Shown piece by piece: positions 29,892-64,000 of a DNA stretch of 64,000 bases. How positions within the stretch are numbered: the stretch's first letter is position 1; each line of letters begins with the position of its first letter. Where the stretch lies: NCBI GenBank assembly GCA_027488935.1, contig JAIYAP010000081.1, positions 1-64,000 of the forward strand, written 5' to 3'. This stretch comes from Saprospiraceae bacterium (GTDB taxonomy: Bacteria > Bacteroidota > Bacteroidia > Chitinophagales > Saprospiraceae). A program made the position numbers and the translations under genes. A model generated the notes under the pieces. That model saw only the letters and a list, made by a program, of their open reading frames with translations, did not search any database and was not told the origin of the DNA.

Positions 29892-30428
29892 CTATTTAAA
29901 AATGCAGTTGTAGGTAGCCTTTGAACCTGCAAGGTAAGAAAGTGACATAACGGCACTTTGGATACCAATATCTGCCAATTTGTGGTACCACTTGCTCTTT
30001 TTGTGCACACGCACCAATGGAATTGTAGCAGACAGTGCGGCACCGGAAATCAACACATTCTGGGTAAGGAACAGGAGGTGGTACGCATCGGTAAACTGAA
30101 CCGGTACACCCGGGCGGGTATATTTATTTTCCCAAGAAAGGGTATTGTCGAAGTACTGACGGTTGGCGTTTGGAAAGCGATCGAAGAACTTTTCGCGTTT
30201 CCAGATCAACGTTTCGCGTACACCTTGGTTAACACCGGCTGCGAAAGATAAGGTTGCAGGCAAAATGGCCAATTTGAGGCTGCGTTTGAGGCTAAAGCGG
30301 AAAGTTTCTGTTGTTTTAGTGGTATTTAAACCAAGTTCTGGGCGGGCGCTCAGATTTTTTGCGTTGTGTGCGAATTGAGCGCTGAGGATACAAGGAAGGA
30401 AGCAGAGAACAAAAACAAGAGACTTCAT
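29892..30428 (-). CDS. Hypothetical exported envelope protein behind a repeat-controlled promoter
   Basis: The protein has 178 residues with a Sec signal peptide ending CILSAQ. Two or three weakly hydrophobic helices follow (LKLAILPATLSFAAGV and LTQNVLISGAALSATIPLV), between which sits FDNTLSWENKYTRPG. This resembles a group of small Bacteroidota envelope proteins of unknown function. Upstream on the minus strand are two tandem 21-bp repeats and a CATCTTTG -7 box (30487-30560), placing the transcription start about 50 bp ahead of the ATG. The same control module occurs before the two small RNAs at the right end of the window, so these genes are probably co-regulated. Confidence 0.7.
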   Translation of the reverse strand: MKSLVFVLCFLPCILSAQFAHNAKNLSARPELGLNTTKTTETFRFSLKRSLKLAILPATLSFAAGVNQGVRETLIWKREKFFDRFPNANRQYFDNTLSWENKYTRPGVPVQFTDAYHLLFLTQNVLISGAALSATIPLVRVHKKSKWYHKLADIGIQSAVMSLSYLAGSKATYNCIFK

Positions 30429-30486
30429 GATGACAGATTGTTACAGATTGGAAGATGATTGGCGCCTTACTGGCCGTTTGATGATA

Positions 30487-30560
30487 CAAAGATGGGGCGT
30501 GACCAGGCCTGCTTTCAGAACCTTTCGTTTTTTGGCAGGCATCGTTCGGACTTTGGTAGG
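30487..30560 (-). promoter_or_regulatory. Activator-type promoter: two tandem 21-bp repeats, 24-bp gap, CATCTTTG
   Basis: On the minus strand, unit 1 is 30560-30540 (begins CCTACCAAAGTCCGAACG) and unit 2 is 30539-30519 (begins CCTGCCAAAAAACGAAAG). They abut with a period of exactly 21 bp. After a 24-bp gap comes CATCTTTG (30494-30487). A weaker third unit may lie at 30561-30581. The repeats take the place of the -33 element, as expected for an activated promoter. Confidence 0.65.
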
Positions 30561-61198: not shown

Positions 61199-61915
61199 TT
61201 ATCGAATAGAAAACATGTCTACATAATTATCGGCAATCAATTCGGCGTAATTAAAATCGGTAATGGCCGAATGCACCCCAAAATCAATGGTGTTGGGGGT
61301 GCGCAAAATCTCCCCCACATTTACCCGGAGGCGGAGTTCATTGCGGGCGCCCGCTTGAAGATCCATCACTTGCTCGAATGGCAGGGTAATGGTGCGGATA
61401 CAATTGTGTGGAGACCGGAATCCGCCAATATGAAATTCAAAAAAGTGGCCCGGCGATTTGGATGCGGGTGCGGTACCTTCTAATTTTAAAAAAATATAGC
61501 CCGTATTCCAGGCCCAAAACATGGCATTTTCGGGATCGAGTGCACCCGATTGCACCCCACTGCAATTTTGTAAACTGTCTACTCCGAGGGTAAATTGCAA
61601 AGCGCGATACCGACCTGGCGGAATTTTTTGCAAAGGGAAAGCCAGGGTTGAAACTTCCTCCACATCGGCTAAGTAATACGTATTGGAATGAAAATCGGGC
61701 CCTGCTGCAGCGAGCAAGACCGGATTTCCCAGATAATATTTACATTTTGACACACTGAAGGGCTGTTGTAACGCATTGTAATACACCGCCGTATCTAGGT
61801 ACAAGGCCCGTCCGTCGACCACATGTTCCAGCACCAGGTTTAACTGCGCGGGCGGAGCAAAAAGGCCCATCCATCCGGCCAGCCACTCCATATAATATAA
61901 AACCCAAACAAACAT
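61199..61915 (-). CDS. MbnP-family (copper-associated) protein
   Basis: The 238-residue protein has LNLVLEHVVDGRALYLD near the start, LQFTLGVDSL mid-protein, then GYIFLKLEGTAP and HIGGFRSPHNCIRTITL. These match the MbnP family, named from methanobactin-linked copper proteins and usually found next to an MbnH di-heme peroxidase. No MbnH gene is here. The N-terminus (FVWVLYYMEWLAGWMGLF) is hydrophobic but lacks basic residues, so export is unclear. Its ATG directly follows the stop of the upstream YHYH gene (TAA then ATG), a sign of coupled translation. Confidence 0.82.
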   Translation of the reverse strand: MFVWVLYYMEWLAGWMGLFAPPAQLNLVLEHVVDGRALYLDTAVYYNALQQPFSVSKCKYYLGNPVLLAAAGPDFHSNTYYLADVEEVSTLAFPLQKIPPGRYRALQFTLGVDSLQNCSGVQSGALDPENAMFWAWNTGYIFLKLEGTAPASKSPGHFFEFHIGGFRSPHNCIRTITLPFEQVMDLQAGARNELRLRVNVGEILRTPNTIDFGVHSAITDFNYAELIADNYVDMFSIR

Positions 61916-63157
61916 TTAACGCTTCACTTTGACAATTTTCTGAATCACTTGTGCTTTATCGGCGTTCAAATGCAGGAAATAAATACCGGAAGGCAGTTCT
62001 GACAAATCGAGTGGGTACTGAATACTCGGTTGCAGGTTTTGATAATCGGCTACCACGGCACCGTTTTCATTGTATAATACGCCGGTGATGTTGTTTACAC
62101 TGTTTGGGGTAAAATAAATGAACGCCGTTGATTTAACCGGATTGGGGCCAAATTCGTATTCAATACCGGTTTCCGGGGTGTGGCTTGCGCTTACACCATT
62201 ATACACCGTGGTTGTTTCATTGATGGTATTGTGGCCGCTGTTCGGACCGCCCATGTTACCCGCCTGCACAACGCCATAAAAAGTACCGAACATGGTGAAT
62301 GGGAATACCGGATCCAAATTGCCATCAATCGTGACAAAATAAGCGTAAATACCATTCGGATATTCGGGTGTAATGCAAAAACGGCCATTGCGTTCGTCTA
62401 AGTCGCCCGCGCCTTGCACATACACGTGATCCTGAATGTAGCAACCAATTGGAAATTGTGCACTTACAGCCGGACCCGCCGCGCTTGCTGTGGAGCCGTC
62501 CGGGAGCGTGGTGCGGGTGGTGATATTGCGAATTTGGTAAGACGATTGCATGCGTTTAATACCGCCCGTTCCATCGGCGTTGGCAAACCCGTAAGCGCCA
62601 TAAATGGGAAATCCATCAAAGGCATAACCGATAATAGGCGCATGCTGGGTGCTGTCGGTATCATCGTACACACAGCGCGGGTTTACATGGTGGTGGTATT
62701 CGCCGCCTGGGGCAGGGTGACCGAGGCAATCATCAAAACTCGAACCTTCCCAATATAATGCATTGCGTTTCCAAATGCCCTGGTTGTTGTAACTCATGCC
62801 ATCGTCGGCATTAAATACGCTGACACCATTGCTCCAAACGCCCGTGTGGCCAAGTCCGATATTCGTAAGGGTACCCGCGTTTTTTACGGGGTTTCGAGTG
62901 ATTTTATAGACAAAATTCTTGTTGACTGGAATATTCGGATTGCCAGCCCAAGGGCCAATGTCATAACCCGGAATGCAGCTGCAACTTACATATACATTAT
63001 TGGTAGAATACTGTACGATTTGAACGTTGGAAGGCAGGTTGTTGTAACCCGTTTCGGTACCAGGGTTGCGTACCCAGGAAGTAACCGCAGGGCCTTGAGC
63101 GGTGATGGCACAGCAATTGGCGCCTAAAAACAATAAAAGCAGGTTGATATATTTCAT
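61916..63157 (-). CDS. YHYH-domain protein with T9SS type A sorting domain
   Basis: The 413-residue protein has a signal peptide ending AITAQ. The YHYH domain (about 90-310) shows GEYHHHVNPRC, IIGYAFDGFPIYG and ENGIYAYF-like strands such as NGIYAYFVTIDG. The last 75 residues are a T9SS C-terminal domain (FGPNPVKSTAFIYF, LSELPSGIYFLHL), so the protein is secreted or surface-bound. YHYH domains are probably metal-binding from their histidines; pairing with MbnP points to copper. A GATCTTTG box (minus, 63284-63291) is one base from consensus. Confidence 0.88.
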   Translation of the reverse strand: MKYINLLLLFLGANCCAITAQGPAVTSWVRNPGTETGYNNLPSNVQIVQYSTNNVYVSCSCIPGYDIGPWAGNPNIPVNKNFVYKITRNPVKNAGTLTNIGLGHTGVWSNGVSVFNADDGMSYNNQGIWKRNALYWEGSSFDDCLGHPAPGGEYHHHVNPRCVYDDTDSTQHAPIIGYAFDGFPIYGAYGFANADGTGGIKRMQSSYQIRNITTRTTLPDGSTASAAGPAVSAQFPIGCYIQDHVYVQGAGDLDERNGRFCITPEYPNGIYAYFVTIDGNLDPVFPFTMFGTFYGVVQAGNMGGPNSGHNTINETTTVYNGVSASHTPETGIEYEFGPNPVKSTAFIYFTPNSVNNITGVLYNENGAVVADYQNLQPSIQYPLDLSELPSGIYFLHLNADKAQVIQKIVKVKR

Positions 63158-63330
63158 AAGGATACCGATGATGAATTGAGCACGAAATAATTTGACTGTC
63201 GTAAGATGCCCCTTTTACCTCAAACTTGCGCTGGATCAGCACCTTTTTTTAAATTCAGTCTTTTATATTACGCATTCGCATAGCCAAAGATCTACTTCAG
63301 CAAGCCTTCAAAATTGAAAATAGCGGCATA

Positions 63331-63404
63331 CCGGTCAAAAACAGGCTGTCCCCTACCATTTCCCGAAAACATCCGGCGAGGCCCCTACCCCCGCCCCATC
63401 TTTG
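63331..63404 (+). promoter_or_regulatory. Activator-type promoter of small RNA 1: two 21-bp repeats, 24-bp gap, CATCTTTG
   Basis: Repeat units are 63331-63351 (begins CCGGTCAAAAACAGGC) and 63352-63372 (begins CCTACCATTTCCCGAAAA), directly abutting. A 24-bp gap leads to CATCTTTG (63397-63404). The last part, CGCCCCATCTTTGTATCATC and two more bases, is identical to the promoter at 30487 on the minus strand. Confidence 0.65.
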
Positions 63405-63410
63405 TATCAT

Positions 63411-63644
63411 CAAGCAAGCAAAAAACAAACAAACAGATCGGGGACAACAGGATTGAGTAGCATGGATTTTGAGATTACCCCCCACCCCCGATCGCCTTAA
63501 AGCAGGAAGCAATATTGAGGTCATGGAACATGCCGGATTGCAAAAGTGTATTCCGGTATGTCCTGCCCAATAAACTAAGATACACAAACACTATGGAGGA
63601 GAACTATTTAGGCTGATGCACAAATGTGTGCGTCGGCCTTTTTT
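63411..63644 (+). ncRNA. Candidate small RNA 1 of a tandem pair
   Basis: The predicted transcript of about 234 nt runs from the CATCTTTG promoter to a strong terminator. Stem A pairs GATCGGGG (63436-63443) with CCCCGATC (63486-63493). A conserved block AAGCAATATTGAGGTCATGG (63507-63526) follows. Stem B pairs 63529-63537 with 63552-63560. The terminator stem has 13 bp (63610-63622 with 63627-63639) and ends in six T. The copy at 63783 keeps the same order, with different bases in the stems that still pair. A short ORF inside the conserved block is an alternative reading. Confidence 0.6.
63610..63644 (+). terminator. Intrinsic terminator of small RNA 1
   Basis: A 13-bp stem with two G-T pairs closes a four-base loop and is followed by TTTTTT. 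Confidence 0.85.
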
Positions 63645-63681
63645 ATATTCTGATTCAAATCTTGCATGCTCCTTTTTAGGC

Positions 63682-63776
63682 CCAACCAAAAAACGAAGGA
63701 TTCCTGCCAAAAACAGGCAGATGCCTACCAATTCCCGAAAACGATGGGCGCAGGTTTTGGAACCGTCGCAAATTTG
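63682..63776 (+). promoter_or_regulatory. Activator-type promoter of small RNA 2: three 21-bp repeats, 24-bp gap, CAAATTTG
   Basis: Units are 63682-63702 (begins CCAACCAAAAAACGAAGG), 63703-63723 (begins CCTGCCAAAAACAGGCAG) and 63724-63744 (begins CCTACCAATTCCCGAAAA), with no gaps between them. A 24-bp gap leads to CAAATTTG (63769-63776). A loose consensus over all copies is CCTRCCAAAAMMCGAAAG. Confidence 0.65.
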
Positions 63777-63782
63777 TTCCAC

Positions 63783-63986
63783 CAAATAAAAAACAAACAA
63801 TCAGGTCAAGGCATGCGGTGCACACCGTGCAAAATATCCCGACCTGTTAAAATAAAAAGCAATATTGAAGTCATGGTTCATACCGGATTATAAAAGCATA
63901 ATTCGGTATGCCTTTTTCAAGATAAAGCAATTTTGGAAGGAAAACAACAAAAAAGCTGATGCACAAAAGGGTGTATCGGCTTTTTT
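63783..63986 (+). ncRNA. Candidate small RNA 2 of a tandem pair
   Basis: The predicted transcript is about 204 nt. Stem A pairs CAGGTC (63802-63807) with GACCTG (63841-63846), different from copy 1 in every position but still pairing. An inner hairpin lies near 63815-63829. The conserved block is AAGCAATATTGAAGTCATGG (63857-63876). Stem B pairs 63879-63889 with 63900-63910 (11 bp). The terminator stem (63953-63964 with 63971-63982) has compensatory changes relative to copy 1 and ends in TTTTTT. No ORF longer than about 75 codons with convincing features is present. Confidence 0.6.
63953..63986 (+). terminator. Intrinsic terminator of small RNA 2
   Basis: A 12-bp stem with two G-T pairs, a six-base loop and a run of six T. 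Confidence 0.85.
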
Positions 63987-64000
63987 ATTGCGCATCCTGA

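Follow-up and report, generated by a model that had tools for sequence, protein, structure and literature searches.

Two adjacent units on the forward strand of a Saprospiraceae contig, lying within the last part of the window (the whole 64,000-nucleotide stretch of DNA that was analysed), are predicted to encode sibling small RNAs. Unit 1 (63411-63644, about 235 nt) was delimited from sequence, homology, fold and identity to the related genome G023, and unit 2 (63783-63986, about 205 nt) from sequence, fold and G023 identity. Our preferred reading, to which we assign a probability of about 0.55, is that these are tandem-duplicated sibling sRNA genes, driven by a LytTR-type activator that they share with genes for secreted proteins, and that their products pair with targets in trans through a conserved block. 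That the units encode small RNAs is judged from the promoter, the structure, the terminator and the finding that no plausible gene lies downstream on the same strand. They appear to constitute a new RNA family of a known type, since sibling sRNAs, tandem ones included, are a familiar theme in the account of PMC4211561.

Each unit follows the consensus order hairpin A, block, hairpin B and terminator, all on the + strand. In unit 1, operator-like repeats GTCAAAAAC (63334-63342) and ACCATTTCC (63355-63363) followed by CGAAA (63364-63368) make up an upstream arrangement at 63334-63368, beyond which a TTTG of the Bacteroidota -7 promoter element (63401-63404) predicts a start at about 63409-63412. 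Stem-loop A (63436-63493) has arms GATCGGGG (63436-63443) and CCCCGATC (63486-63493). The conserved block GGAAGCAATATTGAGGTCATGG (63505-63526, with AAGCAATATTGARGTCATGG at 63507-63526), a candidate seed or protein site, precedes stem B (63529-63560) and an intrinsic terminator with a 13-bp stem and U run (63610-63644), the last two recognised by fold and covariation. Unit 2 repeats this layout, with operator-like repeats GCCAAAAAC (63706-63714) and ACCAATTCC (63727-63735) and then CGAAA (63736-63740; arrangement 63706-63740), the TTTG of its -7 element (63773-63776), stem-loop A (63802-63846; arms CAGGTC at 63802-63807 and GACCTG at 63841-63846), the block (63855-63876, with AAGCAATATTGAAGTCATGG at 63857-63876 corresponding to AAGCAATATTGARGTCATGG of unit 1), stem B (63879-63910) and the terminator (63953-63986), again recognised by fold and covariation. 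The units are spaced by 350 bases from block to block and by 372 from operator to operator. The initial annotation had described two tandem, diverged RNAs, and direct reading of the sequence found all of its stems, blocks and terminators, including the differing stem A arms of the two copies, together with every base change that it listed between copies 1 and 2: G-T (63532/63557) to A-T (63882/63907) in stem B, and T-G (63617/63632) to T-A (63960/63975) and G-C (63618/63631) to G-T (63961/63974) in the terminator.

The units look stand-alone rather than leaders of the next gene, because the plausible downstream genes are antisense to them in their own genome (L019:1133-1540 and beyond), in G004 and in G023. 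To the left of unit 1 lies a divergent gene whose product is a YHYH protein carrying a type IX sorting tail, and then an MbnP-like gene; the two are adjacent at 61199-63157 on the - strand, and the YHYH gene is divergent from an RNA unit in all three of these genomes.

Homologues were found in two of the 41 other genomes of the genus, G023 carrying both units and G004 one. In a DNA search of 60 genomes (the window's own and 59 relatives), 217 bases of unit 1 aligned to G023 at 93% identity, and 124 bases aligned to the G004 unit at 83%. The G004 unit adjoins the same YHYH gene as unit 1 of the window and has a different right-hand neighbour, an opposite-strand frame that we take to be DNA polymerase III alpha-like; YHYH-gene orthologues in G009 and G033, inspected by eye, showed no such RNA upstream. 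Over most of its length each unit shares 93-98% of its bases with G023 (186/200 aligned bases at 63420-63619, 78/80 across the unit 2 operator and promoter at 63700-63779 and 115/120 at 63860-63979), compared with about 50% in the adjacent intergenic DNA (79/160 in the left flank at 63180-63339 and 74 of 168 alignment columns in the right flank at 63980-64139). The stretch holding unit 2 hairpin A (63780-63859) is identical at 57/80 positions. Against a simple picture of conservation, the operator-promoter region of unit 1 (63340-63419) is identical at only 54/80.

The covariance-model search of relatives that the initial annotation had suggested returned homologues with conserved, covarying pairing in G023 and G004. 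Model R1, built on the core of five sequences and run over 42 genus genomes, scored those five at 88.0-91.8 bits and found one extra place in each of the window's own genome, G023 and G004 at 26.3-31.1 bits. This score alone is no proof of homology, because a chance-like hairpin in G003 reached 27.5 bits; that match, in the fourth of the 42 genomes to give one at E <= 0.1, was rejected because it reads as a common terminator of the hairpin-plus-T kind. In a run of R1 over 298 genomes from the order, the window's own genome alone matched at E <= 0.01, in a sample that evidently left out G004 and G023 and under stricter filters that lose weak matches. Model R2, applied with similarly strict filters to 398 genomes of the family, matched seven at E <= 0.05; the extra matches in G011, G505, G598 and G600 were by eye three hairpin-plus-T terminators and one coding-looking piece. 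The block pattern GCAATATTRARGTCA gave 13 matches in the genus, eight of them in the three genomes, compared with two for the reversed pattern, and the five outside the three genomes looked coding by eye. A longer block pattern found eight contigs in a wider set of genome contigs; two of them agree in match positions with the G023 and G004 contigs, and the other six were set aside, since they come from unrelated taxa and scored no higher than 26.6 bits with R2, whereas the eight members scored at least 71.9. No Rfam 15 family matched anywhere in the window at its gathering score, in keeping with the annotation's failure to recognise a known family; five sub-threshold matches at 63200-64000 reached at best 26.3 bits, the cut-off being 66.

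In all three genomes the extra locus has GCAATATT-A-GTCA at the same distance, within 1-2 bases, before a B-like hairpin, and the loci are syntenic, with a sugar-transferase gene before them and a very long gene for a surface-protein-like product downstream. From this alignment and synteny we read the third locus as a dispersed paralogue of the units. It lies in C72:44000-62000 of the window's own genome (L147, L088), in C4 of G023 (L089) and in C167 of G004 (L090). In the own genome two similar genes, one of which was tested and carries DUF4842/DUF4114, stand between the sugar transferase and the RNA locus, which follows directly after a stop codon and ends in a U run and so may be a 3'-UTR element. 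The third locus is absent from the sites of the operator pattern described below. Its cluster contains genes for a LytTR response regulator, a CheY-like regulator, the sugar transferase and the very long surface protein, preceded in the own genome by genes for an HNOB (haem-NO-binding) protein and a hybrid kinase. The loop of hairpin B (63542-63548 in the window) reads AAAAGTG in unit 1 of the own genome and of G023 and in the third locus of both (L088:4852-4926 in the own genome), and AAACGAG in both unit 1 and the third locus of G004 (the latter at L090:2857-2931). The same two-base change in two paralogues could reflect a short gene conversion, a shared partner that changed, or chance.

Folded whole, with their terminators, all five units were more stable than each of 200 dinucleotide shuffles, with z-scores of -4.59 (unit 1), -6.93 (unit 2), -4.99 (G004), -4.45 (G023 unit 1) and -7.12 (G023 unit 2). 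When unit 1 was cut down to a 132-nt piece with stem A, the block and no more of stem B than its 5' half, z was -0.69, with 49/200 shuffles as good, and the third locus gave -2.42 in the own genome (3/200 shuffles) and -7.31 in G004. Preserved pairing with changed bases, which the initial annotation took as a sign of selection on RNA shape, was borne out for stem B and the terminator. Across eight homologues, few and related and themselves the source of the structure, stem B was paired in 91.3% of 104 cells compared with at most 51.9% in slid versions, and both sides had changed at 6 of 13 pairs, a number reached by 4/500 shuffles and set against at most two pairs in slid controls; its covariation score was reached in 0/500 shuffles, and its count of pair types was ordinary (241/500). 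The terminator, examined in five sequences to which the same limits apply, was paired in 96.9% of 65 cells compared with at most 43.6% in slid versions and had both sides changed at 5 of 13 pairs; pairs and score were reached in 0/500 shuffles, and pair types were again ordinary (246/500). Since only 3 of the 42 genus genomes contain the RNA family, the covariation rests on few related sequences. The lower extension of hairpin B, formed by the 3' part of the block and a variable arm, was weaker, with 75.6% of cells paired and one of nine pairs doubly changed.

Hairpin A is the least certain structural element, and here the earlier claim of covariation between copies needs qualifying. Copies 1 and 2 differ so much in these arms that no alignment is possible, and comparing them shows a stem at the same place rather than true covariation; the arms of unit 1 are identical in the own genome, G023 and G004 and therefore give no covariation information. 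Between the unit 2 orthologues of the own genome and G023, all 6 outer pairs of stem A were kept through one double and two single changes, in a comparison of two sequences whose shuffle control was uninformative (262/500). At the hairpin A position the third locus of G004 has an unrelated stem.

A region search of the own genome also matched promoters of other genes, and their alignment revealed a common upstream repeat and promoter. We therefore searched 42 genus genomes with the pattern CGAAA-N30..34-TTTGYNYCAYCAA, which occurred at 26 places, compared with one for a reversed control: 11 in the own genome, four each in G023 and G004, and one in each of seven others. All 19 sites of the three genomes have a 50-nt span with 32 bases from CGAAA to TTTG, whereas the seven sites elsewhere span 49-52 nt, one of them 50. 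Moreover, RCC stands both 9 and 30 bases before CGAAA, and thus 21 bp apart, at 16/19 sites in the three genomes compared with 0/7 elsewhere. Unit 2 is among the 16; the exceptions are unit 1 of the own genome, unit 1 of G023 and a response-regulator gene, the last two having the variant CTGTTTCCCGAAAA in common. The repeats of unit 1 are degenerate, the first in particular. When periods of 15-27 were tried, 21 was the single best at 12/19 sites, tied at two and not best at five. As reported in Tables 2 and 3 of PMC6193735, LytTR operators consist of ACC-led 9-bp repeats with 12 bp between them and a 21-bp period, and PMC7366714 gives TAnnTTTG as the Bacteroidota promoter consensus; no clear -33 element was seen by eye in the promoters with TTTG. 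Judged from the form of the repeats, a LytTR-type regulator is most likely the protein that binds them; that it is the LytTR response regulator encoded near the third RNA locus is our guess. The suggestion in the initial annotation that one activator serves both copies gains from this upstream arrangement of fixed geometry common to both units.

Twelve of the 19 sites lie before genes for a secreted protein of 178 amino acids, five before RNA units and two elsewhere. The twelve genes are on C3, C11, C19, C41, C46, C62 and C75 of the own genome (the last cut by a contig end), C28 and C34 of G023, and C120, C331 and C534 of G004. The window holds one such gene (29892-30428, - strand), with a start that by eye resembles a signal peptide, behind an operator-promoter arrangement running from CGAAA to CATCAA (30478-30527, - strand), and it is probably co-regulated with the RNAs. 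Of the other two sites, one precedes a gene for a response regulator (own C61). The second, on own C72, is separated by about 330 bases, including a 118-codon frame, from a polyphosphate-kinase gene downstream. This kinase gene (L148:1221-3274) is split into two successive open frames, through either a frameshift or an error of assembly.

The 178-aa family occupies 17 places in the three genomes (ten, four and three in the own genome, G023 and G004), of which 12 have the operator arrangement. Two further genes, own C62:3 and G023 C28:1, begin at contig edges where upstream DNA is missing, and those on own C80 (twice) and G023 C595 showed no match to the operator pattern. The family has subgroups about 43% identical to each other, its own-genome copies including those on C3, C11, C41, C46, C62, C75 and C80. 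Within the 42 genus genomes it occurs in the same three as the RNAs, with weak relatives in G027 and G034; the three may be sisters, which would weaken the argument from co-occurrence. The protein matched no Pfam or PHROG family, its NCBIfam matches fell far below cut-off, and PDB sequences gave a single match at E 0.1. Its AlphaFold model has four helices at low confidence (mean pLDDT 55.5).

The block, with consensus GGAAGCAAUAUUGARGUCAUGG, is nearly invariant and mostly single-stranded, and GCAATATT-A-GTCA is unchanged in 8/8 homologues. The complement of the block, allowing up to three mismatches, occurred at 24 non-self places in the three genomes compared with 13 for a reversed control, an excess that comes mostly from G023 (11 vs 2, compared with 9 vs 6 in the own genome and 4 vs 5 in G004). 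Only one of the 22 sites that could be placed (two of the 24 being without a locus) lay at a start codon, and that in G023 only. Predicted duplexes with operator-linked mRNAs, calculated for 25 pairs with 60 shuffles each and ignoring intramolecular folding, had energies that did not clearly stand out from the shuffles, at z -2.04 to +0.90. Hfq (PF17209) was not found in the own genome, and 5/14 control genomes matched the same profile; a canonical Hfq-dependent mechanism is consequently unlikely. According to PMC7366714, sRNAs of Bacteroides work although no homologue of Hfq or ProQ is obvious there.

We propose that the whole unit, comprising operator, promoter, RNA and terminator, was probably duplicated in tandem to give the two sibling genes. 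A LytTR-type response regulator would bind the direct repeats 21 bp apart and recruit RNA polymerase to the TTTG promoter, so that the secreted 178-aa proteins and both RNAs would be made simultaneously. Each transcript would present a 5' hairpin A of free sequence, the block, a hairpin B conserved in shape and the intrinsic terminator. Since no plausible same-strand gene follows the units, the RNAs should act in trans, presumably without Hfq, and the block would most likely base-pair with mRNAs that have to be adjusted once the secreted-protein programme is switched on.

A different use of the block would make the units decoy RNAs, acting in the manner of 6S or CsrB, in which block and hairpin B sequester an RNA-binding protein or RNA polymerase. 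We regard this as unlikely, and retain it because the complement search yielded a single start-codon site and the duplex energies were uninformative. The invariance of GCAATATT-A-GTCA fits such a role, as do the 5' arm of the lower stem, kept while its partner arm varies, and the searches, which gave no Hfq in the own genome and no evident mRNA target in the three genomes. Seven of the 14 operator-linked leaders were scored for likeness to the block, and three of these resemble it at their start region (11-12/18 bases, compared with at most 10/18 in 47 mechanically listed open reading frames of the window); however, the other four have no such likeness (best 3-6/18), and no Rfam family matched at gathering score.

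It is very improbable that the units are stand-alone attenuators or 5' leaders that have lost their gene, or debris of a duplicated promoter, with no function in trans. The same operator-promoter drives 178-aa genes elsewhere, and one of these genes could thus have given rise to the units, but debris does not account for their near-identity to G023 between flanks only about half identical, for pairing kept despite base changes, or for the lack of a plausible same-strand gene downstream. We give hardly any credence to the idea that the units are short mRNAs, or dual-function RNAs, with a small peptide translated from an ATG within the block, a possibility that the initial annotation had itself raised. 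The block does end in ATGG, and the frame from it runs for 16 codons in unit 1 and in G004; yet it has 6 codons in unit 2 of both the own genome and G023, runs past the corresponding place without a stop in unit 1 of G023, and lacks the ATG at the matching position of the third paralogue, and the two 16-codon versions differ at 7 positions, so that no peptide is conserved. Just as implausible is a DNA-level element such as a recombination or protein-binding site, which the tandem inverted repeats and dispersed third copy might suggest, for RNA is favoured by the G-U pairs of stem B and of the terminator, the operator is followed in order by a promoter and a terminator, and the seven neighbouring proteins scanned included no transposase or integrase family.

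The preferred reading, tandem sibling sRNAs that pair in trans, has parallels in known systems. The likeness to Qrr and OmrA/B RNAs pointed out in the initial annotation holds as an analogy (diverged siblings, a conserved core and probable response-regulator-type control), not as membership. As PMC4211561 describes them, OmrA and OmrB of Enterobacteria are tandem diverged siblings with shared conserved parts, like the units, and are controlled by a two-component system; they are however 82-88 nt long with conserved ends and interact with Hfq, whereas the units are about 205-235 nt long with a conserved internal block, in a genome with no Hfq match, and match no Rfam family. The same source presents the Qrr RNAs of Vibrio as several siblings with one conserved core, of 32 nt, activated by the response regulator LuxO, but with dispersed rather than tandem genes (PMC4211561). 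The units, for which no Rfam model gave a match, are homologous RNA genes with conserved structure, each with its own predicted promoter and terminator. LuxO is not known to be a LytTR protein. Within the Bacteroidota, the sRNAs GibS (B. thetaiotaomicron) and Rfp18 (F. psychrophilum) are set apart by their available descriptions, which present neither as a tandem pair. The structured RNAs 6S-Flavo, Bacteroidales-1 and Flavo-1 of this phylum came from comparative genomics (Weinberg 2010; PMC2864571), and their Rfam models had no match in the window at gathering score. The titles and abstract openings returned by searches of the open-licence literature contained no description of the RNA pair.

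A wider and rather doubtful reading places the units in a lineage-specific signalling module as its RNA arm. In this module a LytTR regulator would switch on a private secreted family while Hfq-independent siblings reset surface functions. The regulator might then come from the cluster with H-NOX (nitric-oxide sensor), hybrid-kinase and exopolysaccharide genes beside the third paralogue, and if so the third copy would tie this exopolysaccharide and surface-protein region into the same circuit. To our knowledge, trans-acting sRNAs in environmental Bacteroidota without Hfq have been little mapped. Here an RNA family with covariation occurs together with a defined upstream arrangement and a defined, probably co-regulated protein family, so that separate tests of regulator, RNA and output are feasible. 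As only three of the searched genomes contain members, the family may be young and may thus offer a view of how sRNAs originate and duplicate.
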